DNA of 52,702 nt, from assembly GCA_947457845.1 (NCBI GenBank), contig CANGXM010000002.1, forward strand, positions 1 to 52,702. Direction: 5' to 3'. A program made the position numbers and the translations under genes. Under the pieces are notes generated by a model, which was not told where the DNA came from, ran no database searches, and worked only from the letters and a program-made list of their open reading frames with translations. This stretch comes from Rhodospirillales bacterium. GTDB lineage: Bacteria > Pseudomonadota > Alphaproteobacteria > Azospirillales > Azospirillaceae. Positions 34,377-48,551 of the stretch are shown one piece after another. How positions within the stretch are numbered: the stretch's first letter is position 1; each line of letters starts with the position of its first letter.

Positions 34377-35069
34377 TCAGGCGAGGTCGAACAGCGTCGG
34401 GAAGGCGTGCATGTCGTCGAAGGTGCAGAAGGACGGCACGGGGAATTCGAAGACCGGTGCCGCCTCCAATAGGTGGGCGGTCGCCGCGCCGCAGACCTCG
34501 GCCATCGCCCTCTGTTCGTCCGGGGTGAGCCAGTCGATCTGGTAGCCGAGCGTCAGGTGGAACCGGTAGCCGAGGTGCACCGGCACCCGCAGGCCGAGCA
34601 CCGCCGACAGGCGATCGCGCAGCGTGCGCAGGCGCAGGTGCTCCTCCGGGTCCGCCGGCTCCAGCGTCACGCCGAGGAACCCGCCGTGGACGGCGATCAC
34701 CCCGCCGACCGCCACCCGGATCGGCGCCGTGATGCCGAACCGCACCGCCCGCAGCCGGGCGGCGAACAGGTCGGTGCAGGCCGCGAGCGGCGCGTCGAGC
34801 GGCAGGTCCGCCGGCCAGCGGACGGGATCGCGGATCTGGTCGCACGCCCCCTCGAATATCGTCATGTGCCAGGACGAAGGCGGCAGCAGCGCGTGCCGGC
34901 GGGCGGGCAGGGCCGCCAGCCGGTCGTACACCCGCATCAGCGCCGTCCGTGCCGGCCCGTCCGCGGGCAGGTGGCAGACGATCGTGTTGCCCGGGAAGGC
35001 CCGGACCGACCCGTCCGCGTGGAACTTGCGTCCCACGTCGGCCGGGGGTGGCGGCGCGTGGCCGTCCAT
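34377..35069 (-). CDS. DUF1868 domain-containing protein, 2H phosphoesterase-type
   Basis: 230 residues. It has the two H-x-T motifs that define the 2H phosphoesterase superfamily, His68-Met-Thr70 in PSSWHMTIFEG and His171-Leu-Thr173 in YRFHLTLGYQ, about 100 residues apart as expected. Superfamily members cleave or ligate cyclic phosphodiesters (2',3'-cyclic or similar). The ATG at 35069 shares a base with the stop of the TIM-barrel gene (TGATG), so translation is coupled; it is the last gene of the ugp operon. By position it may open a cyclic or glycerol phosphodiester brought in by UgpBAEC. That substrate is inference; the fold assignment is well supported. Confidence 0.82.
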   Translation of the reverse strand: MDGHAPPPPADVGRKFHADGSVRAFPGNTIVCHLPADGPARTALMRVYDRLAALPARRHALLPPSSWHMTIFEGACDQIRDPVRWPADLPLDAPLAACTDLFAARLRAVRFGITAPIRVAVGGVIAVHGGFLGVTLEPADPEEHLRLRTLRDRLSAVLGLRVPVHLGYRFHLTLGYQIDWLTPDEQRAMAEVCGAATAHLLEAAPVFEFPVPSFCTFDDMHAFPTLFDLA

Positions 35070-35977
35070 CAGGCGTCCGCGAACCGGGCCTCGGCCATGA
35101 GCGACCGCGTCGCCGCGAGGCACTCTTCGGCCGCGTACCAGTAGCGCGACTTCAGCTCGATGTTGAAGACGGTCCCCTGCGGGAAGGTGCAGCGGGCCAT
35201 GACCGCCGACCAGGGGAGCGAGCCCCAGCCGACCGGCATGTGCAGGTCGCCGTTGCCGAAGGCGAGGCGCTCGCCGTCGGTGAAGGCCCAGATGTCGTCG
35301 ACCCGGCCGAAGCTGTCGTGGACGTGCAGATGGCGCGAGAGCGGGGCGAGTGCCGCCACCTCGGACAGGAAGTCGCCGCCGGTGTTGGCCATCTGGAGGT
35401 AGGCGTGGCTGAAGTCGAGCGTCGCCGCCACCGACGGGTGGTCGATCCGGCGGAGCTCCGCGGCCAGCCGGCTGGGCAGGCCCGCGTGCACGCTGCCATC
35501 GAAGTCGCTGAAGATATTCTCGACGCAGAGCACGACGCCGTGCTGGCGCGCGAAATCGCCGGCGATCGACAGCTGCTCGCGCTGGCGGGCGTAGGCGTCC
35601 TCGACCAGCGGCGCCGACATCGTCGGGTACATCCCGTTGTGGATCACGTAGTTGACCGCGCCCACCTCGGCCGCGACCTCGACCGATGCCTTCAGCACCT
35701 CCATGTGCCGGGCCAGACGCTCCGGCCGGTCCATGAGATTGATGTTGAGCGGGCCGTGGACCGTGAGCGCGACGGACCGGCCGGCGCAGGCGCGCTTCAG
35801 CGCGTCGAGCTGCGGGCGGCGGATGCGGGCGCCGATCACGATGTCCATGTCGTAGGTCGGCAGCTCGATCGAGCCGACGCCCAGCGCCTCGATCATGTCG
35901 AGTTCGGCGCCGAGGTCGGACAGGTCGGGGGCGCGCTTGTGGGCGGACAGGCCGGGACCGATCGCGTGCGGGGTCAT
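35069..35977 (-). CDS. TIM-barrel metal-dependent protein (sugar phosphate isomerase/epimerase family)
   Basis: 302 residues of the AP-endonuclease-2-like TIM barrel. Candidate metal ligands are His74 (TVHGP), His113 (VIHNG), Glu153 (CVENI), Asp188/His191 (TLDFSHAY), His220 (HLHVHDS), Asp244/His246 (GNGDLHMPVGWG) and Glu274 (NIELK). The rich ligand set would suit a di- or trinuclear centre, as in phosphodiester-cleaving relatives, as well as in sugar epimerases. It lies 29 bases after ugpC and is coupled to the 2H phosphoesterase gene. It occupies the slot where ugpQ often sits, so a phosphodiesterase role is a real alternative to isomerase. Confidence 0.82.
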   Translation of the reverse strand: MTPHAIGPGLSAHKRAPDLSDLGAELDMIEALGVGSIELPTYDMDIVIGARIRRPQLDALKRACAGRSVALTVHGPLNINLMDRPERLARHMEVLKASVEVAAEVGAVNYVIHNGMYPTMSAPLVEDAYARQREQLSIAGDFARQHGVVLCVENIFSDFDGSVHAGLPSRLAAELRRIDHPSVAATLDFSHAYLQMANTGGDFLSEVAALAPLSRHLHVHDSFGRVDDIWAFTDGERLAFGNGDLHMPVGWGSLPWSAVMARCTFPQGTVFNIELKSRYWYAAEECLAATRSLMAEARFADA

Positions 35978-36006: not shown

Positions 36007-37113
<1,107 letters not shown>

Positions 37114-37142
37114 CGACGGCTCCTTGGGATCGGATGGGACGG

Positions 37143-38036
37143 TCATTTGTCGGTGTTGACGAGGCCGCGGACGAAGTAACCCTGCATGAAGATCACGACG
37201 AGGAGCGGCGGGATCATGACCAGCAGCGTCGCCGCCATGGCCTCGTTCCAGATCGGCGGCTGTCCGAACAGCGGGCCGGGGACGATCTTCTTCAGCTGCA
37301 TGGTCGCGGTCGCCATGTCCTGGTCGGTGACGACCAGCAGCGGCCAGAGGTACTGGTTCCAGGCGTAGACGAACATGATGGTCGCGAGTGCCGCCATGTT
37401 CGTCTTCGACAGCGGGATCAGCACCTCGAGGAAGAAGCGGATGGGTCCGGCGCCGTCCATCTTCGCCGCCTCGGCCAGCTCGTCCGGGATGGTCAGGAAG
37501 AACTGCCGGTAGAGGAAGGTGCCCGTCGCCGTGGCGACCAGCGGCAGGATCAGGCCCGTGTAGGTGTTCAGGAGGTTCACCTCGGGCACGAACAGCGGCA
37601 GGCCGAGGAAGTCCAGGATCGTGCGGAAGGGGCTGAGCGTGTCGGCCACGACCGCGTAGGTCGGGACGATGCGGACCTCAAGCGGCAGCATCAGCGTGAT
37701 GAAGATCAGCCAGAAGAAGACCATCCGCAGCCTGTACTTGAAGTAGACGATCGCGAAGGCGGACAGCGCGGCGATGACGATCTTTCCGGCCGTGACGCCG
37801 ACGGCGACGATCAGGCTGTTGATCATCTTCGCGCCGAAGTCGGCCTTCTCCCAGACCCGGGCGTAGTTCTCGAAGAACTGGTCGCCGGGCCACAGCGGCA
37901 TCGGCACCATGTTGACCGTGCGGAAGTCGTGGGTCGACGCGATGAAGACGACCGCAATGGGCAGCACCGCCACCACCACGCCGATGAGCATGATGACGTG
38001 CGTGATCGCGTTCAGGATCGGGGTGCGTTCGATCAT
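37143..38036 (-). CDS. ugpE: sn-Glycerol-3-phosphate ABC transporter permease UgpE
   Basis: 297 residues, six membrane segments. The start [19 protein letters not shown] and the [18 protein letters not shown] region match E. coli UgpE layout, and the EAA loop reads [18 protein letters not shown]. It forms the channel with UgpA, whose stop lies 7 bases upstream. The UgpC start follows after 29 bases. Confidence 0.88.
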
Positions 38037-38043
38037 CGCCGCC

Positions 38044-38928
38044 TCACTTGTAGTGGATCTTCCGCTCGACGAAGCGGAACTGGATGAAGGTCAGGCAGAC
38101 GACGAGCGTCATCAGCACGATCGACTGGGCGGCGGCCATCGAATAGTCGAGCGCCTTGAACCCGTCGGAATAGATCTTGAAGACCATCAGGTCGGTCGCG
38201 CGGGCGGGGCCGCCGCCCGTGGTGATGTCGACGATGCCGAAGCTGTCGACGAAGGTCTCGGTGATGTTGATGACCAGCAGGAAGAAGAAGGTCGGCGCCA
38301 GCAGCGGCAGCTGGATGTCGAACACCCGGCGCACCACGCTCGACCCGTCCATCGCCGCCGCCTCCAGCAGCGAGCGCGGGATCGACTGCAGCCCGGCCAG
38401 GAAGAAGATGAAGTTGTAGGCGACCATCTTCCACGAGTTGGCGAAGACGATCAGCGCCATCGCGTGCCCGCCGTTCACCGCCGGGTTCCACAGCCCCGGG
38501 AAGGCGTCGTTCAGCGCCGCCATGAATCCGGCCTGGGGCGCGAAGATGAAGCGGAAGGCGAGGCCGACCGCGGGGGCCGCGATCGCGTAGGGCCAGAAGA
38601 GGACGAAGCGGTAGGTGCGGTAGCCGGTCAGCTGTCGATCCACCGCCACCGCCAGCACCAGCGACATGACGATCGAGAGCGTGGTCGACGCGACCGCGAA
38701 GAGCACCGACACCTGCACCGAGTTCCAGTAGACCCGGTCGGCGAAGATCTCGCGGAAGTTCTGCAGCCCCACCCACTCGTTCACGCCGCCGAAGGGCGGC
38801 TGTGTGGTGAAGGCCCAGTAGAAGGCCTGGCTTGCGGGCCAGTAGAAGAAGACGAAGACCAGAAGCATCTGCGGCGCGATCAGGGCGCCCGCGAGCCAGA
38901 GGCTCTTGAAGGTGACGCGCTTGTCCAT
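38044..38928 (-). CDS. ugpA: sn-Glycerol-3-phosphate ABC transporter permease UgpA
   Basis: 294 residues. Strongly UgpA-like along its length: LIAPQMLLVFVFFYWPA at the start, WKMVAYNFIFFLAGLQSIPR with the EAA loop LLEAAAMDGSS, the TGGGPARATDLMVFKIYSDG segment, and the C-terminal FIQFRFVERKIHYK. Six transmembrane helices are expected. It is preceded by ugpB with a 70-base gap and followed by ugpE after 7 bases. Confidence 0.9.
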   Translation of the reverse strand: MDKRVTFKSLWLAGALIAPQMLLVFVFFYWPASQAFYWAFTTQPPFGGVNEWVGLQNFREIFADRVYWNSVQVSVLFAVASTTLSIVMSLVLAVAVDRQLTGYRTYRFVLFWPYAIAAPAVGLAFRFIFAPQAGFMAALNDAFPGLWNPAVNGGHAMALIVFANSWKMVAYNFIFFLAGLQSIPRSLLEAAAMDGSSVVRRVFDIQLPLLAPTFFFLLVINITETFVDSFGIVDITTGGGPARATDLMVFKIYSDGFKALDYSMAAAQSIVLMTLVVCLTFIQFRFVERKIHYK

Positions 38929-38998
38929 GCCCAGCCGATCCTGCCGCGTAAGGGAACGGCGGGGGCGCCGGGGCGCCCCCGCCGGTGACGGGAGCCGA

Positions 38999-40339
38999 TC
39001 AGGGCAGCTGGCGGCCGCGCATGGTCTGCTCGAAGCGGCGCAGGATCTGGTTGCCGCGGGCGGCCGCGTCGTCCAGGGCGACCTGCATGTCCTTGCGGCC
39101 GGTGAAGGCGGCCTCCAGCTCCGAGCGGATCTCCGCGCGGATCTGGGTGAAGTTGCCCAGCCGGATGCCACGCGACAGCGGCGAGGGCGGGGTCGCGGTC
39201 AGCGACTGGATGGCCAGTTCGCGGCCGGCGAACTTCGGGTTGTTGTAGAACCCGACCTCGTTCAGAAACTTGAAGGCGCTGTTCGTGATCGGGATGTAGC
39301 CCGTCACGGTCGACATCCACAGCGCCTCGTCGGCCTTGGCGATGAACTGGAGGTAGGCCGCAGCCGCCTCGTATTCCTGCTGGCTCTTGCCGGACATGAT
39401 CCAGAGCGACGCGCCGCCGACCAGCGAGTTCTGCCGCGTGAAGCCCTCGTAGACCGGGAGCATCGCGAGGCCCCAGTTCAGGGTCGGGACCGCAGTCGCC
39501 TGGACGACGCCGTGGCTGGCGACCGAGGACAGGAAGGAGGCGCAGGAGCCGTCCGAGAAGGCCTGCAGCGCGGTCTTGCCGACCTGGGCCGTCTGGATGC
39601 GGGCGACGCCCTCGTCCAGCAGCTTCTTCCAGTCCTTCATGTAGTCGGCGAACTTGGTCTTGTTGAAGACCAGCTCGGCGTCGAGACCGTCATAGCCGTT
39701 GTTCTTGGTCGCGATCGGCTGGTTGTGGATGGCGGAGAACTGCTCCAGCGGCATCCAGGTGTCGTAGTCGAAGGCGAAGGCGCACTCGACGCCCGCGGCC
39801 TTCATCTTCCGCAGGTCGCCGAACCACTCCTCGATCGTCGCCGGGGCGGTCGTCTTGCCGATCTTCGCCCAGGCGTCCTTGTTCCAGTACATCAGCGCGG
39901 TCGAGCTGTTGTACGGGAAGGACCACATGTCGCCCTTCGAGGTCGCGTAGTAGTTCGCGACACCCGGGAAGTAGTCCTTCCAGTCGACGTTCAGCTTGAA
40001 GTCGTCGACCAGCTTGTTGGCCGGATAGATCGCGCCCGACAGCATGAAGTTCACGGTGCCGGCGTCGTAGATCTGGACCAGCGTGGGATGCTGGCGCGAC
40101 CGGTAGGCCGCGATCGTGTTCTGCTCGGCCGTGTCGTAGCCGCCCTGGCCGACGCAGACCGCCTCGTACTTCGTCTGGCTCTCGTTGAAGCGCTTGCAGT
40201 GCGCCTCCATGATCTCGCCGAGCTGGCCGGTCAGACCGTACCAGTAGTCGAACTTGATCCGGTTCTGCGCTTCGGCGGAGCCGGCCGACGCCAGGGCGAG
40301 CAGCGTGGCCGCACCGGCGAAGAGGGACTTGATCTGCAT
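38999..40339 (-). CDS. ugpB: sn-Glycerol-3-phosphate-binding periplasmic protein UgpB
   Basis: 446 residues. A signal peptide ends at AEAQ (about residue 25). Collinear UgpB features are GQLGEIMEAHCKRFNES, TLVQIYDAGTVNFMLS, KNNGYDGLDAELVFNK, GGASLWIMSGKS, TGYIPITNSAF and the C-terminal IRLGNFTQIRAEI with RGNQILRRFEQ, each with a clear counterpart in E. coli UgpB. Members bind glycerol-3-phosphate and often glycerophosphocholine or other glycerophosphodiesters. It is the first gene of the operon. A Pho-box-like element lies about 70 bases upstream, which fits induction by phosphate starvation. Confidence 0.9.
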   Translation of the reverse strand: MQIKSLFAGAATLLALASAGSAEAQNRIKFDYWYGLTGQLGEIMEAHCKRFNESQTKYEAVCVGQGGYDTAEQNTIAAYRSRQHPTLVQIYDAGTVNFMLSGAIYPANKLVDDFKLNVDWKDYFPGVANYYATSKGDMWSFPYNSSTALMYWNKDAWAKIGKTTAPATIEEWFGDLRKMKAAGVECAFAFDYDTWMPLEQFSAIHNQPIATKNNGYDGLDAELVFNKTKFADYMKDWKKLLDEGVARIQTAQVGKTALQAFSDGSCASFLSSVASHGVVQATAVPTLNWGLAMLPVYEGFTRQNSLVGGASLWIMSGKSQQEYEAAAAYLQFIAKADEALWMSTVTGYIPITNSAFKFLNEVGFYNNPKFAGRELAIQSLTATPPSPLSRGIRLGNFTQIRAEIRSELEAAFTGRKDMQVALDDAAARGNQILRRFEQTMRGRQLP

Positions 40340-40393: not shown

Positions 40394-40428
40394 GCTATCG
40401 CAGACGAGCGATGACGGCCCGGTGACGG
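40394..40428 (-). promoter_or_regulatory. Pho box-like direct repeat and -10 upstream of ugpB
   Basis: Read on the minus strand, CCGTCAC (40428-40422), four bases CGGG, then CCGTCAT (40417-40411): two 7-base repeats at the 11-base period of PhoB sites (consensus CTGTCAT-N4-CTGTCAT). After another 11 bases comes GATAGC (40399-40394), a weak -10 at the position used in Pho promoters. The ugpB ATG is about 55 bases further on. Confidence 0.6.
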
Positions 40429-40524
40429 TTTGTTAACCCCACCGGGAACATTGGATTGGCGATCTGTTGCGGCGCGGTGACGGATCGGTGTCGCGGGCGG
40501 GCGGAGACGCTTCCGGACCCCGGA

Positions 40525-41010
40525 TCAGCGGGCGTTCCGGTGGTCGGCCGGCCGGTCGAAGGCGCCCCGCCAGAGGCCGCGCCGCGCCTGCCGCGCCGTC
40601 GCCTCCTCCGCCGCGTAATGTCCGTGGGAATAGGTCGGTTCGTCGATCGCGAGGCCGGCGGCCACCATCGCCGCCCCGAGATCCCGGTCGCCGGATCGGC
40701 AGAGGGCGACGACCCTGCCGCGGTGCGTCCCGCGCACCGTGCAGACGACCGTTCCCGAGCCCGCCAGCGCCTGCAGGAGGAGGCGGCTGCGCCGGCCGCA
40801 GTCCCAGGCCGGCTCGACCGCGTCGCCCCGGCACGTCTGGGTCAGTTCTGGCGCGTCGATGCCCCAGAGCCGGACGGTGCGCCCGTCGACGATCAGCGTG
40901 TCGCCGTCGATCACCCGCTCGACCGGGCCGGCGAGGGTCTCGGCCGCGGCGACTCCGCAGGCGAGAAGGAGGACGGCGGACAACGGCGCGACGAGGCGGA
41001 GCGCGGACAT
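40525..41010 (-). CDS. Thermonuclease (SNase) family protein, secreted
   Basis: 161 residues. A signal peptide (hydrophobic core LSAVLLLACGVAAA, cleavage near AAAE) precedes one SNase OB-fold domain. Catalytic elements are the VIDGDTL metal loop, VRLWGIDAPE (Arg and Glu) and the second Arg in THRGRVVALC. Two extra cysteine pairs may form disulfides in the periplasm. It probably degrades nucleic acids outside the cytoplasm, which could release phosphate near the ugp operon, although no Pho box of its own was seen. Its stop lies 185 bases upstream of ugpB. Confidence 0.85.
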   Translation of the reverse strand: MSALRLVAPLSAVLLLACGVAAAETLAGPVERVIDGDTLIVDGRTVRLWGIDAPELTQTCRGDAVEPAWDCGRRSRLLLQALAGSGTVVCTVRGTHRGRVVALCRSGDRDLGAAMVAAGLAIDEPTYSHGHYAAEEATARQARRGLWRGAFDRPADHRNAR

Positions 41011-42211: not shown

Positions 42212-42932
42212 ACTGGCCGGTGATCGAGCGCGCCGCGTCGGAGGCTAGGAAGAGGACGGTGGCCGCGATCTCCTCAGGCTCCACGAAGGCGCCGGTCGCC
42301 GCGCGGGCGAGATAGCGCGCCTCGGCGGCGGCGCGGTCGAGGCCGTTGGCGGCGGCGAAGGCGGTCAGAACCCGGTCGATCCGCTCCCCGCGGACGGAGC
42401 CCGGCAGGATCGCGTTCACGCGGATGCCGTCGCGCCCCACCTCGCGCGCCAGCGTCGCGGTCAGGCCCAGCAGGCCCCATTTCGACGCGGTGTAGGGGCT
42501 GCGGTCCGGCGTGCCGAGGCGGGCGGCGACCGACGCCATGTTGACGATCACGCCCCCGCCGGCCGCCTTCATCCTCGGCACCATGGCGCGGCAGGCGACG
42601 AAGGGCGCCGTGAGGTTGACGGCCAGCACCTCGCCCCAGGCGTCGACCGGCATCGCCTCGACCGGCAGGGTCGGCCCGGCGATGCCGCCGTTGTTGACCA
42701 GCAGGCGGCACGGCCCCGCCGCCTCGACCAGCGCCGTCACCGCGTCGGCGTCGCGCAGGTCGCAGGCGATCCACCGGGCGCCGAACTCCTCCGCCCGGGC
42801 GGCGCCGTCGCTTCCGGGCAGGTCGGACAGCACCACCTCCCACCCCTCGGCCCGCAGCGCCCGCACGATCGCGAGGCCGATGCCCGCGGCGGACGCCGTG
42901 ACCAGCGCGCGGCGGGGGGCGCCTTCGGTCAT
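42183..42932 (-). CDS. SDR family oxidoreductase (TRAP operon)
   Basis: 249 residues. TASAAGIG near residue 12, then VNNGGI (the usual NNAG has Gly in place of Ala), Ser in MASVAAR, YTASK, and the terminal ITGQFIGVDGGF. The Asp at the end of beta-2 (VVLSDLP) indicates NAD(H). Its ATG overlaps the DctM stop by 4 bases, so it is the last gene of the dehydratase/TRAP operon. It may oxidise the imported hydroxyacid or sugar acid. The 3' end runs 29 bases into the convergent prolyl aminopeptidase gene. Confidence 0.88.
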   Translation of the reverse strand: MTEGAPRRALVTASAAGIGLAIVRALRAEGWEVVLSDLPGSDGAARAEEFGARWIACDLRDADAVTALVEAAGPCRLLVNNGGIAGPTLPVEAMPVDAWGEVLAVNLTAPFVACRAMVPRMKAAGGGVIVNMASVAARLGTPDRSPYTASKWGLLGLTATLAREVGRDGIRVNAILPGSVRGERIDRVLTAFAAANGLDRAAAEARYLARAATGAFVEPEEIAATVLFLASDAARSITGQFIGVDGGFE

Positions 42933-44233
42933 TGGGCCATCAGCGCGGGCAGGAAGGTGATCACGCCCGGCAGCAGGATCATCAGGCTGATCCGCGCGAT
43001 GTCGAGCACGATGAACGGCACGATGCCCCGGTACACGGTCCCGAGCGGCAGGTCCTTCACCACGGTCGTGATGATGAAGAGGTTGAGCCCGACCGGCGGC
43101 GTGATGAGGCCCAGTTCCGCCACCATCACCACGATGATGCCGAACCAGATCGGGTCGTAGCCGAGCGCCGTCACCACGGGAAAGAAGATCGGCACCGTCA
43201 GGAGGACCATCGGCAGGCTCTCCATGAAGGTGCCGAGGATCACGTAGACGACGAAGATCATGTAGATGATCGCGAGCGGCGGCAGCCCCGACTGGTCGAT
43301 CAGCGCCGAGAGCGCCTTGGGAAGCCCGATCAGGTTCATGAAGTTGGAGAACAGCAGCGCGCCCACCAGCACGAAGAACAGCGCCGCCGTCATGGTGACG
43401 GTCTCGAGCAGGGAGGCGGTCAGGGTCGCCCGGTCGAGCGCGCGACGCCACAACGTGAGCAGCAGGGCGCCGAACGCCCCGACGCCCGCGGCCTCGGTCG
43501 CGGTGAAGACCCCGAGGTAGATGCCGCCGATCACCGTGACGAACAGGACGAGCAGCGGCCCGTTGCTGGCCAGCGCCGCCCGCCGCTCGGGCCACGCCAT
43601 CCGCGCGGCGGCCGGTGCCGCGGCCGGGTTCCGGTGCGCGATGGCCGAGATCAGGCCCATGTAGAACAGGATCGCGATGATCCCCGGCACGATGCCCGCG
43701 ATCATCAGCTGGCCGACGTCGGTGCCCGTCGCGATGCCGTAGAGCACCATGATGACCGACGGCGGGATCAGGTTGCCGAGGCAGCCGCCCGCCGCCACCG
43801 ACGCGCTGGCCAGCGTGTCGGCGTAGCGATAGCGCCGCATCTCCGGCATCGCGACCTTGGCCATGGTGGCGGCCGTCGCGATCGAGGAGCCGGAGACGGC
43901 CGAGAACATGCCGCAGGCGACGACGGTCGCCATCGCGAGCCCGCCCTTCCGGTGCCCCAGGAAGGCGTGGCAGAGCCGGTACATGTCCTCCGACATGCGC
44001 GCGCGGGTGATCAGCGCGCCCATCAGGATGAACATCGGCACCACCGACAGCTCGTAGCTGGTGGTCTGGTTGAAGGCCAGCTGGCCCAGGATGCCGAAGG
44101 CCGTCCGCTCGCCGTAGACGAGCCAGATGCCGCCGAGGCCGGTGACGATCAGCCCGAACGCGATGGGCATGCCGCAGACGATGAAGACGCCCATGGCGAG
44201 GAACGCCAGCCCCGCCATTTCCCAAACGCCCAT
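42929..44233 (-). CDS. TRAP transporter large permease (DctM type)
   Basis: 434 residues with about twelve membrane segments. Family hallmarks include SSIATAATMAKVAMPEM, GGCLGNLIPPSVIMVLYG and the C-terminal LGLITPPVGLNLFIITTV. It is the Na+-coupled translocation subunit. The ATG at 44233 has GGAGGGG upstream, better than the adjacent in-frame GTG. It lies 34 bases after the small-permease gene and overlaps the SDR start. Confidence 0.92.
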   Translation of the reverse strand: MGVWEMAGLAFLAMGVFIVCGMPIAFGLIVTGLGGIWLVYGERTAFGILGQLAFNQTTSYELSVVPMFILMGALITRARMSEDMYRLCHAFLGHRKGGLAMATVVACGMFSAVSGSSIATAATMAKVAMPEMRRYRYADTLASASVAAGGCLGNLIPPSVIMVLYGIATGTDVGQLMIAGIVPGIIAILFYMGLISAIAHRNPAAAPAAARMAWPERRAALASNGPLLVLFVTVIGGIYLGVFTATEAAGVGAFGALLLTLWRRALDRATLTASLLETVTMTAALFFVLVGALLFSNFMNLIGLPKALSALIDQSGLPPLAIIYMIFVVYVILGTFMESLPMVLLTVPIFFPVVTALGYDPIWFGIIVVMVAELGLITPPVGLNLFIITTVVKDLPLGTVYRGIVPFIVLDIARISLMILLPGVITFLPALMAQ

Positions 44234-44267
44234 CACCCCTCCGTGCCCGCGGGCTGCCCGGTCGTCC

Positions 44268-44765
44268 TCACATGTCCTCCTGCACGCCCACGCGCAGCGA
44301 CCGGCCGCGCGCGGCGTTCCACGCCGCCAGGAGGAAGGCGAAGGCGGCGAGGCCGACCAGCACCGCCATCGCCATACAGACCATGCCCTTGGGGATGCGG
44401 AGCTCCATCGTCACCTCGCCGAAGCGGACGAGCCGGTCGCCGTAGAGCCACATCCGCCACGCCATCAGCCCGCACACCGCAGCACCCAGAAGGTCGAACG
44501 CCACCGCCAGCACCCGGCGCACGGCACCGGGCATCCGGTCGAACAGGATCGCGTCGACCACGTGCTCGCGCCGGAGCGTCACCAGCGGCAGGGCGCCGAA
44601 CACCAGAAGCCCCATCGCCATCTCGGTCAGCTCGAACGCCCCGCGGATCGGGCTGTTGAAGACGTAGCGCCCGAGCACGTCGGCGAAGGTGAGCGCCATG
44701 ACGAGGCCCGCGATCGCCCCGGCCGCCACGGCCAGCGCGAGGAACAGGCGGTCGATCAGGACCAT
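44268..44765 (-). CDS. TRAP transporter small permease (DctQ type)
   Basis: 165 residues, four predicted membrane helices. The conserved region VLGRYVFNSPIRGAFELTEM after the first helix, and the FGALPLVTLRREHVVDAIL segment, are typical of DctQ. It pairs with the DctM subunit encoded downstream. It lies 22 bases after the binding-protein gene. Confidence 0.9.
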   Translation of the reverse strand: MVLIDRLFLALAVAAGAIAGLVMALTFADVLGRYVFNSPIRGAFELTEMAMGLLVFGALPLVTLRREHVVDAILFDRMPGAVRRVLAVAFDLLGAAVCGLMAWRMWLYGDRLVRFGEVTMELRIPKGMVCMAMAVLVGLAAFAFLLAAWNAARGRSLRVGVQEDM

Positions 44766-44787
44766 GCGGGCGGGCCTCGGCGGACGC

Positions 44788-45834
44788 TCAGGGAACGTTC
44801 ACCACCTTCTCCGCCCGGTACTGCTGGGCCATGGCGCGGGCGTAGGCGAGGATCTCGTCGCCCGGCAGGTTGCGCTTCCTCGCCTCGGCCAGCCACTCCT
44901 CCTCCAGCACCTTCAGGCGCTCGCGGATCTTGGCGACCTCGGCGTCGGCCATGGTCACGAACTGGACGTTGCGCGCCTCGAGCGCCTTGCGGCCGAGCGT
45001 GTCGCCGTTCGTCCAGGCCCAGCCGGCCATGGTGGCGATCGCCATGCCGGAGTGCTTGTTCACCGCCGCCTTCTGCCGGTCGGTCAGGCCGTTCCAGGTC
45101 CGCTCGTTGAAGGCGAGCCAGAAGGTGTCGGTGTAGAGGCCCGGGTTGATCGCGGTGGTCGAGCGGATGGCCGGGGTGATGTTGAAGAAGGCCACCGATT
45201 CCAGCGGGAAGGTGATGCCGTCGGCCACGCCGCGCGCCATCGCCTGCTGCGCCTCGGTCGGCGGAACCTGCACCGGCGTGCCGCCCAGCGCCTGGACGAT
45301 GCGGCCGGTGACGTTGCCGCCCACGCGGATCTTCTTGCCGGCCATGTCCTCGACCGTGCGGATCGGGTCGCCGCGCATCGAGATGTAGGGGATGGAGTGG
45401 ACCCACAGGCCCACGACCTTGGCGCCCTTGTGCTCGCCGTACCGCTCGCCGTAGCGCTCGTAGGTGGCCCAGGCCGCCGCGGCACCCGCCCACGGGTCGG
45501 GCGAGGCGAAGGGCAGGTCCATCACCTGGGTCATGGTGAAGCGGCCCGGGTTGTGGCCCGAGACGCCGTAGCCCACGTCGAGGGCGCCGTCGATGACGAG
45601 GTCGAAGGTCGCCGGCGGCGGGCCGAGCGCGCTCGTCATGATTTCGAACTTCAGTTCGCCGCCCGTCTCCGTCTCGATCGCGCGCGCCCAGGGCTCGATG
45701 ATGCCCTTCACGATCAAATGGTGCATCGGCAGCCAGTTGCCGACGCGGATCGTCTTCTGCTGCGCCTCGGCCGGCGTCGCCCCGCCGATCGCCAGCGCCA
45801 CCGCCGCCGCGGCCAGTCCCAGTGCCAGTCTCAT
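44788..45834 (-). CDS. TRAP transporter substrate-binding protein (DctP type)
   Basis: 348 residues. A signal peptide ends at AEAQ (about residue 24). The TRAP-SBP signature includes the conserved Arg segment (GKKIRVGGNVTGRIVQALGG, where an Arg usually binds the substrate carboxylate) and GVADGITFPLESV. TRAP systems mostly carry carboxylates. GGGAGAGGG precedes the ATG; an upstream in-frame start would spoil the signal peptide. It follows the beta-hydroxyacid dehydrogenase gene by 48 bases. With the dehydratase this suggests sugar acids or hydroxyacids as ligands. Confidence 0.9.
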   Translation of the reverse strand: MRLALGLAAAAVALAIGGATPAEAQQKTIRVGNWLPMHHLIVKGIIEPWARAIETETGGELKFEIMTSALGPPPATFDLVIDGALDVGYGVSGHNPGRFTMTQVMDLPFASPDPWAGAAAAWATYERYGERYGEHKGAKVVGLWVHSIPYISMRGDPIRTVEDMAGKKIRVGGNVTGRIVQALGGTPVQVPPTEAQQAMARGVADGITFPLESVAFFNITPAIRSTTAINPGLYTDTFWLAFNERTWNGLTDRQKAAVNKHSGMAIATMAGWAWTNGDTLGRKALEARNVQFVTMADAEVAKIRERLKVLEEEWLAEARKRNLPGDEILAYARAMAQQYRAEKVVNVP

Positions 45835-45882
45835 GGTCCCTCTCCCGTCCTTAGTCCCGTCGTCGTGCACCCGGCGCCCTTG

Positions 45883-46764
45883 TCACAGCGGCGCCTTTTC
45901 CGTGAGCCGGTAGATCGCCAGCGCGTCGATCCCGTCGCCGCCGCGTGCGGCCAGAAGGCGGAACGCCTCCGCCGCCAGCGAGGCGTAGGGCACCGGCGTG
46001 CCCGTCCGCCGCGCGAGGTCGCGCACGCTGTCGAGATCCTTAAGCATCGTGTAGGCGTGCCCCAGCGGCGGGTCGAACCGGCCCTCCACCATCCGCGGCA
46101 CGAAGAGCTGCAGCGGCTTGGAATCCGCGAACCCGCCGGCCAGCGCCTCCGGCAGGCGGCCGGCGTCGATCCCGGCGTCGGCCGCGAGGCGCACGGCCTC
46201 GGCGATCACCGCCATGGTGCAGCCGACGATCACCTGGTTGCAGAGCTTCGTCGTCTGCCCGGCGCCGATGGGGCCCATGCGGGTGAAGCGGGCGGCCATG
46301 GCGAGGACGAAGGGACGCACCCGTTCGACGACCGCGTCCTCACCGCCCGCCATGATGGCGAGCGTGCCCTGTTCGGCCCCCGGCACCCCGCCGGAGACCG
46401 GGGCGTCGACCCAGTCCATCCCGCAGGCGGCCTTCAGCCGGGCGGCGAAGATCTTCGTCCGCTCCGGGTCGATGGAGGAGAAGTCGACCAGCACCTTGCC
46501 CGCCGACCCGCCCGCGGCGATCCCGTTCGCGCCGAAGACCGCCGCCTCGACCGCGTCGCCGTCGGTCAGGCACAGGAAGACGATGTCCGCCCGCCGGGCG
46601 ACGTCCGCCGCGTCCGCCCCCTCGGCGGCGCCCTTCGCCAGCGCCGGCTCGATCTTCGCCCGGGTGCGGTTCCACACCGTCACCGAATGGCCGGCGGCGA
46701 GCAGCCGCAGCGTCATCGGCAGGCCCATCAGCCCGATGCCGACATAGCCCAGCGCGGCGCTCAT
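45883..46764 (-). CDS. NAD(P)-dependent beta-hydroxyacid dehydrogenase (3-hydroxyisobutyrate/tartronate semialdehyde reductase family)
   Basis: 293 residues. The N-terminal Rossmann motif [12 protein letters not shown], the substrate loop [17 protein letters not shown], the catalytic Lys in GQTTKLCNQ and the second-domain segment [13 protein letters not shown] are all family-typical. The VWNRTR segment at the end of beta-2 (Asn/Arg) suggests NADP(H). Its start overlaps the dehydratase stop by 4 bases. The pair fits oxidation or reduction of semialdehydes in sugar-acid breakdown, for example 2-hydroxy-3-oxopropionate reductase. Confidence 0.88.
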
Positions 46765-48479
46765 GCCTCGTCCCCGTAGGAGAAGCGGGCGCCGCCCGCG
46801 TGGGTCACAGCCCCCTTGTTGGCCGGCCCGACCAGTGCGGCGAACTTGGCGAGCGCGCCCGACGGGTGCTTGGGCGGGCGCGGGGTCCAGGCGGCGCGGC
46901 GGCGCTCCAGTTCGGCCGGGTCGACCTTGAGGTCGATCGTGCGCGCCGCCCCGTCGATGCGGATCGTGTCGCCGTCCCGCACCAGCGCCAGCGGCCCGCC
47001 GGCCGCGGCCTCGGGCGAGGCGTAGCCGATGCACATGCCCCGCGTGGCGCCCGAGAAGCGCCCGTCGGTCAGCAGCGCCACCGCCTCGCCCATCTTCTGC
47101 CCATAGATCAGCGCGGTCAGGCCCAGCATCTCCGGCATGCCGGGGCCGCCCTTCGGCCCCTCGTGCCGGACGATCAGCACCTCGCCCTCGCGATAGCTGC
47201 GGGCGTGGACGCAGGCGACCGCGTCGGCCTCGCTCTCGAACACCCGCGCCGGCCCCTCGAACACCACCTGCTTCAGCCCCGCGACCTTCAGCAGCGCGCC
47301 GTCGGGGCAGAGGTTGCCCTTGAGCACCACCACGCCGCCCGTGGGCAGGATGGGGTTCTCCACGGGGCGGATCACGGTGCCGTCGGGCGCCGGGGCGTCG
47401 GCCACCGTCTCGGCCAGGGTCCGGCCGGTGACGGTCAGGATGTCGCCGTGGATGTGGCCGCTTTGAATCAGCGCGCGGATGACCGTCGCCGCCCCGCCGA
47501 CCCTGTGCACGTCGACCGCGTGGAAGGCGCCGCCCGGCCGCAGGTTGCCGATCAGCGGCGTGCGGCCCATCACCCGTTCGGCGTCGTCCAGGTCGAAGGC
47601 GATCCCCGCCTCGTTGGCGATGGCGCACAGGTGCATGGCGGCGTTGGTCGACCCGCCGGTCGCCGCGACGATGGCGCAGCCGTTCTCGATCGCCTTGCGG
47701 GTCACGATCTCGCGCGGGCGGGGGCCGCCGCGCATCAGGATCTCCATCGCCAGCGTCCCCGCCCGCCGGGCGAGGCCGGCGCGGGCCGTGTGGACGCCGG
47801 GCATCATCGCCGAGCCCGGCACCGCGATGCCGATCGCCTCGGCCACCATCGCCATGGTGTTGGCGGTGAACTGGCCGGCGCAGGCGCCCGCCGTCGGCTT
47901 GCACGCCATCTCCAGTTCGCGCAGCGTGGCCTCGTCCATCTCCCCGGTCATCACGGCGCCCACCGCCTCGTAGGCGTCGAGCACCGAGACGTCGCGCCCG
48001 CGCCAGCGGCCGGGAAGCGCGCTGCCGCCGTAGAGGAAGACCGACGGCACGTCGCAGCGGACCATGGCCATGATCACGCCGGGCAGCGTCTTGTCGCAGC
48101 CGCCCAGCCCCACGAGCGCGTCGTAGGCGTGGCCGTGGACCACGGCCTCGATCGAATCCGCGATGATCTCGCGCGAGACGAGGGAGAACTTCATCCCCTC
48201 GTGGTTCATGCCGATCCCGTCGGAGACGGCGACGGTCGTGAACTCCCGCGGGGTGCCGCCGGCCTCGGCCACGCCCTGCTTCGCGGCCTCGGCCTGCCAG
48301 GCGTGGGTCATGTTGCAGGGCGTCGTCTCGCCCTTCATCGACACCACGCCCACCATCGGCTTCGCGATGGCCGCGTCGTCGAGGCCCATCGCCCGCATGA
48401 ACGCCCGGTGGGGCGTGCGGTCGATGCCGTCGGTCGTGATGCGGGACCGCAGCTTCCGCGTCGATGTACCGTTGGACAA
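46761..48479 (-). CDS. IlvD/Edd family dehydratase (dihydroxy-acid or sugar-acid dehydratase)
   Basis: 572 residues from the TTG at 48479, which gives the usual short lead before [10 protein letters not shown]; longer in-frame TTG/GTG starts up to 48548 would run over a palindromic site. The FeS-cluster cysteines are present in [20 protein letters not shown] and [10 protein letters not shown]. The C-terminal [19 protein letters not shown] block is characteristic. The family includes IlvD (branched-chain amino acid synthesis), Edd and aldonate dehydratases. Linkage to a TRAP importer and a beta-hydroxyacid dehydrogenase favours a catabolic sugar-acid dehydratase over biosynthetic IlvD. Confidence 0.85.
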
Positions 48480-48539
48480 GGGCTGCCGATCCTCGAAAGC
48501 GTGCCGGGCGGGCGCACGATACGATGTCACGCTCCCGCC

Positions 48540-48551
48540 CGTTTGCAAACG
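48540..48551. promoter_or_regulatory. 12-bp palindrome upstream of the dehydratase/TRAP operon
   Basis: CGTTTGCAAACG, a perfect palindrome, lies in the 97-base gap between the MetE-like and dehydratase genes, about 61 bases upstream of the TTG start. It has the size and look of a core operator for a dimeric regulator. No regulator gene is adjacent, so the binding factor is unknown. Confidence 0.35.

Follow-up and report, generated by a model that had tools for sequence, protein, structure and literature searches.

A predicted Pho box ahead of a ugpB-like transporter operon in a member of the Azospirillaceae

Introduction

An operon that would be annotated as merely 'UgpB-like' in a Rhodospirillales bacterium (family Azospirillaceae; assembly GCA_947457845.1) raises the questions of which signal switches it on and what its transporter carries. 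In the window, by which the whole analysed stretch of 52,702 nucleotides is meant, a first-pass annotation had placed a Pho box ahead of ugpB and predicted control by phosphate starvation. The element is read here as a functional PhoB operator that would switch on ugpBAEC and the two genes downstream, with a probability of about 0.85; PhoB binding, activation, a phosphate response and a single six-gene transcript are all predicted from sequence. The Pho box reading draws on the matrix score, the rarity of a strict pattern in the genome, the phasing of a third half-site, the boxes before a second ugpB and before pstS, and conservation before orthologous genes. The genes of the operon are the following:

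38999..40339, minus strand: ugpB-like substrate-binding protein of 446 aa, from a sister clade of canonical UgpB (ATG at 40339)
38044..38928, minus strand: ugpA-like permease (start MDKRV set by likeness to MEKRV of orthologues; scan used 38044-38952)
37143..38036, minus strand: ugpE-like permease (NCBIfam)
36007..37146, minus strand: ugpC-like ATPase (NCBIfam)
35069..35977, minus strand: TIM-barrel protein starting 29 bp after ugpC, with weak NCBIfam resemblance
34377..35069, minus strand: 2H-phosphodiesterase (DUF1868; PF08975, 119 bits), start inferred (scan used 34377-35123)

The element and its position

The region upstream of ugpB contains the following features:

40411..40428, minus strand: Pho box core CCGTCAC CGGG CCGTCAT (direct sequence, shuffles and genome patterns)
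40394..40399, minus strand: candidate -10 GATAGC, 11 bp after the core, matching TATAAT at 3/6 positions
40429..40439, minus strand: adjoining weak 11-bp unit GGGTTAA CAAA with an A-rich spacer, the best full-matrix register
40477..40483, minus strand: third half-site CCGTCAC, lying 55 bp before the first core unit and in 11-bp phase with it
40472-40466, minus strand: weaker in-phase flank CCGCAAC, at -133 from ugpB
40494-40488, minus strand: weaker in-phase flank GCGACAC, at -155 from ugpB
40525-41010, minus strand: nuclease-like gene upstream of ugpB (Pfam PF00565)

A Pho box is defined, in the available part of PMC4415409, as two 11-nt direct repeats, each with seven conserved and four less conserved bases. 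The core accords with this two-repeat definition at 11 of 14 conserved positions; on the minus strand, CCGTCAC starts at 40428 and CCGTCAT ends at 40411, 72-89 bp before ugpB, and the order is GGGTTAACAAA, CCGTCAC CGGG CCGTCAT, CGCTCGTCTGC (11 bases) and GATAGC. The repeats, their 11-base period and their coordinates are thus exactly as first annotated, and GATAGC likewise lies where it had been placed, 11 bases past the core (40399-40394). The gap between ugpB and the staphylococcal-nuclease-like gene on the same strand, which ends at 40525 (PF00565), measures 185 bp.

The core may belong to a longer array. Half-sites at -144, -89 and -78, the three best on the promoter strand, all fall in a single 11-bp phase (p about 0.007, 5000 shuffles); with the top four half-sites, three are in phase (p 0.028), and with the top five, four are (p 0.003). 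Since further half-sites lie in phase, the operator may exceed the 18-base core, as in the multi-box ugp promoter of Escherichia coli.

As independent evidence for a promoter, GATAGC was set aside as near chance by itself: shuffles give a 3/6 match to TATAAT at exactly 11 bases in 3.7% of cases, and at a spacing of 9-12 in 13%. Its one support is the ugpB promoter on contig 21 of the same genome where, by eye, CCATCAC is followed after 11 bp by GATAAG, a spacing identical to that in the window. Several close orthologues carry, also by eye, a GCTAGC- or GATAGG-like word ~8 bp past the last unit, so the spacing from core to -10 is not strictly conserved. GATAGC is compatible with a promoter, not evidence for one.

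Predicted mode of control

Under low phosphate, PhoR would phosphorylate PhoB. Phosphorylated PhoB would occupy the direct repeats of the core (40428-40411) in head-to-tail fashion at their 11-bp period; the unit at 40439-40429 probably lengthens the bound stretch, and the half-site in phase at 40483-40477 probably assists. In E. coli, PhoB stands in for the -35 element of its promoters. Bound PhoB would in the same way replace the -35 element here and recruit RNA polymerase to the poor -10, which lies about 11 bp further on. This would switch on ugpBAEC and the two downstream genes of phosphodiesterase-like families.

The best-surviving alternative, though an unlikely one, is that PhoB binds the box but adds little control, and that the operon depends mainly on carbon signals or on transcription running through from the nuclease-like gene upstream (40525-41010). 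According to the accessible text of the sources, the E. coli ugp operon has a second, CRP-type promoter (PMC4415409) and many intragenic PhoB sites of E. coli are inert (PMC10294691). The window site, however, is intergenic, correctly oriented and at promoter spacing, and the nuclease-like gene ends 185 bp upstream.

The match compared with chance

Mismatch counts and matrix seeding used CTGTCATnnnnCTGTCAT, which we take to be the E. coli PhoB consensus. The PhoB matrix was learned from 30 pstS upstream regions (one from this genome and 29 from relatives), with training seeded by that assumed consensus and with no ugpB sequence used; a clear box, scoring >21, is present in 29 of the 30 training promoters, L132 falling below. 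Chance was gauged with dinucleotide shuffles of the 185-bp intergenic region, on both strands for the matrix. The 11/14 consensus match was equalled by 9 of 3000 shuffles. Without its spacer positions, the pstS matrix gives its best score, 16.3, at the core CCGTCAC-CGGG-CCGTCAT, a value reached by 6 of 20000 shuffles. With the spacer included, the best score is 7.4, one unit upstream at GGGTTAACAAACCGTCAC (reached by 82 of 20000 shuffles), and the core's own register scores 5.9. On all three measures the element stands above chance.

The full-matrix value of 7.4 is far below those of the genome's own pstS (23.6) and of the contig-21 ugpB (17.0); the pool for full-matrix comparison comprised 211 kb of the genome, rich in loci chosen by consensus and with some sequence present twice, such that rates from it are upper bounds. 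The low score arises because the A-tract seen in pstS boxes is missing from the core spacer, CGGG, two spacer positions of the pstS matrix carrying about 2 bits each. The A/T-rich spacer of the relatives' pstS boxes is absent from the core, and only the adjoining unit has CAAA. The CGGG spacer lowers the score without excluding the site, since the four spacer bases are the less conserved ones in the available definition (PMC4415409).

Across the genome, a search allowing three or fewer mismatches to the consensus finds 65 places in 4.17 Mb, or ~0.003 per 185 bp, compared with 35 for the reversed control, so that about half of these loose matches are expected by chance; the exact 18-mer, at three or fewer mismatches, recurs at 33 places including the window site, compared with six for the reversed pattern. 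The strict pattern SYGTMAYNNNNSYGTMAY, drawn up after the window, contig-21 ugpB and pstS boxes were known, has 12 matches (11 places), these three among them, compared with none for its reversed control. Matches to the consensus with two mismatches number seven genome-wide, and one of these (contig 21:7906-7923) stops 58 bp short of the start codon, ATG, of the second ugpB:

L047 (G000 contig 21:3000-12000), 4896-8982: second, canonical ugp operon with a multi-unit Pho box

Its box reads CCTTCAC-GAAA-CCGTCAT-GGTT-CTGTAAT-TTCC-CCATCAC, with GATAAG 11 bp later. The genome's own pstS promoter holds three units in register, GTGTCAT CGAA CCGTAAC ATCC CGGTCAC.

Eight strict-pattern places besides pstS and the two ugpB genes were examined, with some of their neighbours profile-scanned. 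At contig 35:9243-9271 (L138, 1501-1529), three in-phase PhoB units precede a choice-of-anchor I family gene, and on their other side lies a divergent gene for a binding protein with weak likeness to phnS2 (121 bits, cut-off 393); this site is likely another Pho promoter. At the remaining seven places the neighbours are not clearly phosphorus genes; C39 falls within a 784-aa frame, and open frames are overlapped by C19, C76 and C140.

Conservation before orthologous genes

The orthologue set comprised 26 window-type loci: the window, 24 loci from one scan of genome contigs (which gave 25, the fragment L105 being dropped) and G006. For each, 200 bp upstream were scored on both strands against 300 shuffles, with p<=0.05 as threshold. 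With the full matrix, 16 of 26 promoters pass (the window, L081, L082, L084, L085, L087, L088, L090, L091, L092-L097 and G006), amounting to 16 of 19 non-rhodobacterial and 0 of 7 rhodobacterial loci; the misses are L083 (0.053), L086 (0.100), L089 (0.870) and all seven Rhodobacterales. These rows are not independent, as L083-L086 and L091 are nearly identical and the six Rhizobium-type rows likewise. The spacer-free matrix passes 21 of 26 (misses L089, L091, L102, L104 and G006), yet four of its five rhodobacterial passes fall on a minus-strand GTGTC...GACA, which resembles an inverted repeat rather than a Pho box.

The GTGTC...GACA element recurs 75-81 bp before the ugpB-like gene in six of seven Rhodobacterales (L098-L103), at the near-constant position where the others have Pho units, and is perhaps a site for another regulator.

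Orientation varies among the passing loci. The best full-matrix site points away from ugpB in L081, L094, L096 and L097; that of L081 is directed at a divergent gene of the endo/exonuclease/phosphatase family, and in L096 the next upstream gene is on ugpB's own strand. In the Rhizobium-type rows (L092-L097, 91-145 bp before the ugpB-like gene), one box at about -91 faces ugpB and another, at about -127, is on the other strand. The leading units share one phase in five of the six orthologues examined (L082, L083, L088, L090 and L091, with L096 the exception). A comparison set of 28 further ugpB promoters from relatives was drawn from the search that also gave G006; at p<=0.05 the full matrix passes 24 of them, the spacer-free matrix 11. 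By the full-matrix test, the box is conserved upstream of the orthologues, with L083, L086, L089 and the Rhodobacterales as exceptions.

These results bear on the improbable alternative that the CCGTCA repeats are a chance product of a GC-rich genome and that the operon uses another promoter. The modest full-matrix score and atypical spacer favour it, as do the 33 places resembling the 18-mer (6 reversed) and the 65 near-consensus places (35 reversed). Against it, only 0.03%, 0.3% and 0.4% of shuffles do as well on the three measures, and intergenic position, 11-bp phasing, orthologue conservation and the paralogous promoter would all have to be coincidence. Taken at the level of sequence, the Pho box is genuine, if slightly weak, and the transporter that it precedes is Pho-linked.

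The regulator in the genome

The genome encodes a PhoB on contig 61 (351 bits, cut-off 296), at the end of a block ordered phoR-pstS-pstC-pstA-pstB-phoU-phoB, in which phoB, phoR and pstS were profile-scanned and pstC, pstA, pstB and phoU were named by eye from their translations. PhoR scores 315 bits, under its cut-off of 334, and its gene is cut by the contig end. A genome search with TIGR00975 gave no PstS match, and the contig-61 PstS reaches 135 bits with TIGR02136, under the cut-off of 207; its name is owed mainly to its place between phoR and the pst-like genes. A second PstS-like protein (G000 contig 25:4370-5368) is 51% identical to the contig-61 copy.

The OmpR/PhoB family binds direct repeats of similar period, which favours the idea that a different response regulator of the family, answering to another signal, uses the repeats. 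Although six further matches in the genome cover almost the full length of the PhoB model, this idea is highly improbable: the matrix was built from pstS promoters, and a site of this type also precedes the genome's own pstS and canonical ugpB.

The transporter and its substrate

The transporter itself departs from canonical Ugp. The window UgpB and UgpA fall under their NCBIfam equivalog cut-offs (331 vs 411 and 289 vs 335 bits), while UgpE and UgpC are above theirs; the contig-21 copy passes with both UgpB (497) and UgpA (375), and its UgpB is 36% identical to that of the window. The first-pass annotation had also taken the box as independent support for the Ugp assignment. So far as the broad class is concerned, a CUT1 importer that is Pho-linked and takes up a phosphorus compound, this is right; it does not extend to canonical Ugp, of which the operon is a divergent sister and whose cut-offs its UgpB and UgpA do not reach. 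A 100/100 branch splits the 26 window-type from the 11 canonical proteins in a tree of all 37, for which the tree tool warned of long branches meeting; ten of the 28 comparison ugpB loci also entered the tree and the pocket check.

For Phaeobacter UgpB, the available part of PMC12718374 reports Glu88, Trp188 and Trp191 as pocket residues. In this numbering, which is followed below, Glu88 becomes Asp and Trp188 becomes Tyr, Phe, Ile or Pro in all 26 window-type proteins (the Trp188 column being less certain in the Rhizobium-type rows and G006, which have an insertion beside it), whereas both are kept in all 11 canonical proteins. The window protein has Asp92, Tyr192 and Trp195 in place of the three, keeping one. 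The equivalents of Trp191, Gly303, Arg393, Tyr64 and Ser143 are kept in 37/37 proteins. The phosphate-coordinating Tyr64, Ser143, Ser266 and Tyr342 correspond to Tyr68, Ser145, Ser271 and Tyr348 of the window protein; the Ser266 column, where the alignment is unsure, holds Ser, Thr, Glu or Gly within the clade and is variable among canonical rows too.

The window type occurs at >50% identity in one of 98 other related genomes (G006, 58%), and proteins from Hyphomicrobiales and Rhabdaerophilum reach 75-79% identity to the window UgpB, the 79% being that of a Hyphomicrobiales protein; the type thus appears patchy in its family, perhaps through loss or transfer. No description of the UgpB sister clade was found in the literature searched by titles and abstract openings, with most subscription journals outside reach.

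Neighbouring genes bear on the substrate. The window's TIM-barrel protein reaches 32 bits with the NCBIfam model of the phosphodiesterase CbiR (cut-off 105) and 20 bits with endonuclease IV; its homologues adjoin the operon in L081 and L089 and match Pfam PF01261. The ATG of the 2H-phosphodiesterase (35069) overlaps the TIM-barrel stop. Elsewhere, type I phosphodiesterases (L088, L090), endo/exonuclease/phosphatase-family proteins (L092, L095 and, divergently, L081) and PhnM (L082; above two NCBIfam subfamily cut-offs, below the equivalog ones) are found. A phosphorus-related neighbour was thus found at 7 of 26 loci (the window, L081, L082, L088, L090, L092 and L095), a count that is not a rate, as most other neighbours were unscanned. 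Because several unrelated families acting on phosphodiesters or phosphonates lie beside one transporter clade, these neighbours suggest that the substrate is a phosphodiester.

Close to the element, on the minus strand of the window (42929-48548), TRAP transporter-like genes (DctP, DctQ and DctM-like) were recognized by eye from translations, and beside them genes resembling short-chain dehydrogenases, hydroxyisobutyrate dehydrogenase and dihydroxy-acid dehydratase, also by eye.

A tentative broader reading, put at somewhat less than even odds, is that the clade forms an alphaproteobacterial importer in its own right, Pho-regulated and sister to Ugp, whose pocket has been remodelled to take glycerophosphodiesters or some other bulky phosphodiester instead of glycerol-3-phosphate. 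The operon would then supply intracellular phosphodiesterases (the CbiR-like TIM barrel and the 2H enzyme in the window; type I or endo/exonuclease/phosphatase-family enzymes in some relatives), and in genomes like that of the window PhoB would control both Ugp types. Should the pocket and the enzymes encoded nearby be true to what they suggest, the clade would import phosphodiesters, for example those released from membrane lipids. The bare 'UgpB-like' annotation becomes a testable phosphate-starvation operon, and one genome can hold a pair of ugp-type operons, both preceded by a Pho box, with binding proteins that differ in the pocket.

Comparison with known systems

The UgpB of Mycobacterium tuberculosis presumably resembles the window clade at the two altered pocket positions, with Asp at one and a residue other than Trp at the other. 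It is distant from the window UgpB (53 bits, over residues 15-184 only), and no claim of family is made. It is described as a glycerophosphodiester binder in the accessible part of PMC8603345. The canonical proteins of E. coli (4AQ4, 281 bits by phmmer) and Phaeobacter (9LFF, 286 bits) are closer: the window protein keeps their equivalents of Tyr64, Ser143, Trp191, Gly303, Tyr342 and Arg393, but its clade has Asp at Glu88 and Tyr, Phe, Ile or Pro at Trp188 throughout.

The box itself resembles those of the 30 alphaproteobacterial pstS promoters in having CTGTCAT-type units in an 11-bp register, but has CGGG in its core where they have an AA-rich spacer. Among characterized systems, the E. coli ugp promoter has multiple Pho boxes (PMC4415409) and ugpBAECQ is PhoB-activated (PMC10294691), in the available text of each. 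The window operon is like ugpBAECQ, so described, in having more than one direct-repeat Pho box ahead of it, and differs in the GC-rich spacer of its core and in a binding protein from the sister clade. A phosphodiesterase gene, that of UgpQ, is part of the E. coli operon; the genes downstream of ugpC in the window encode a TIM-barrel protein and a 2H-phosphodiesterase. The box is of an ordinary, textbook kind, and the notable part is the transporter it is predicted to drive, which is sister to Ugp and altered in its pocket.
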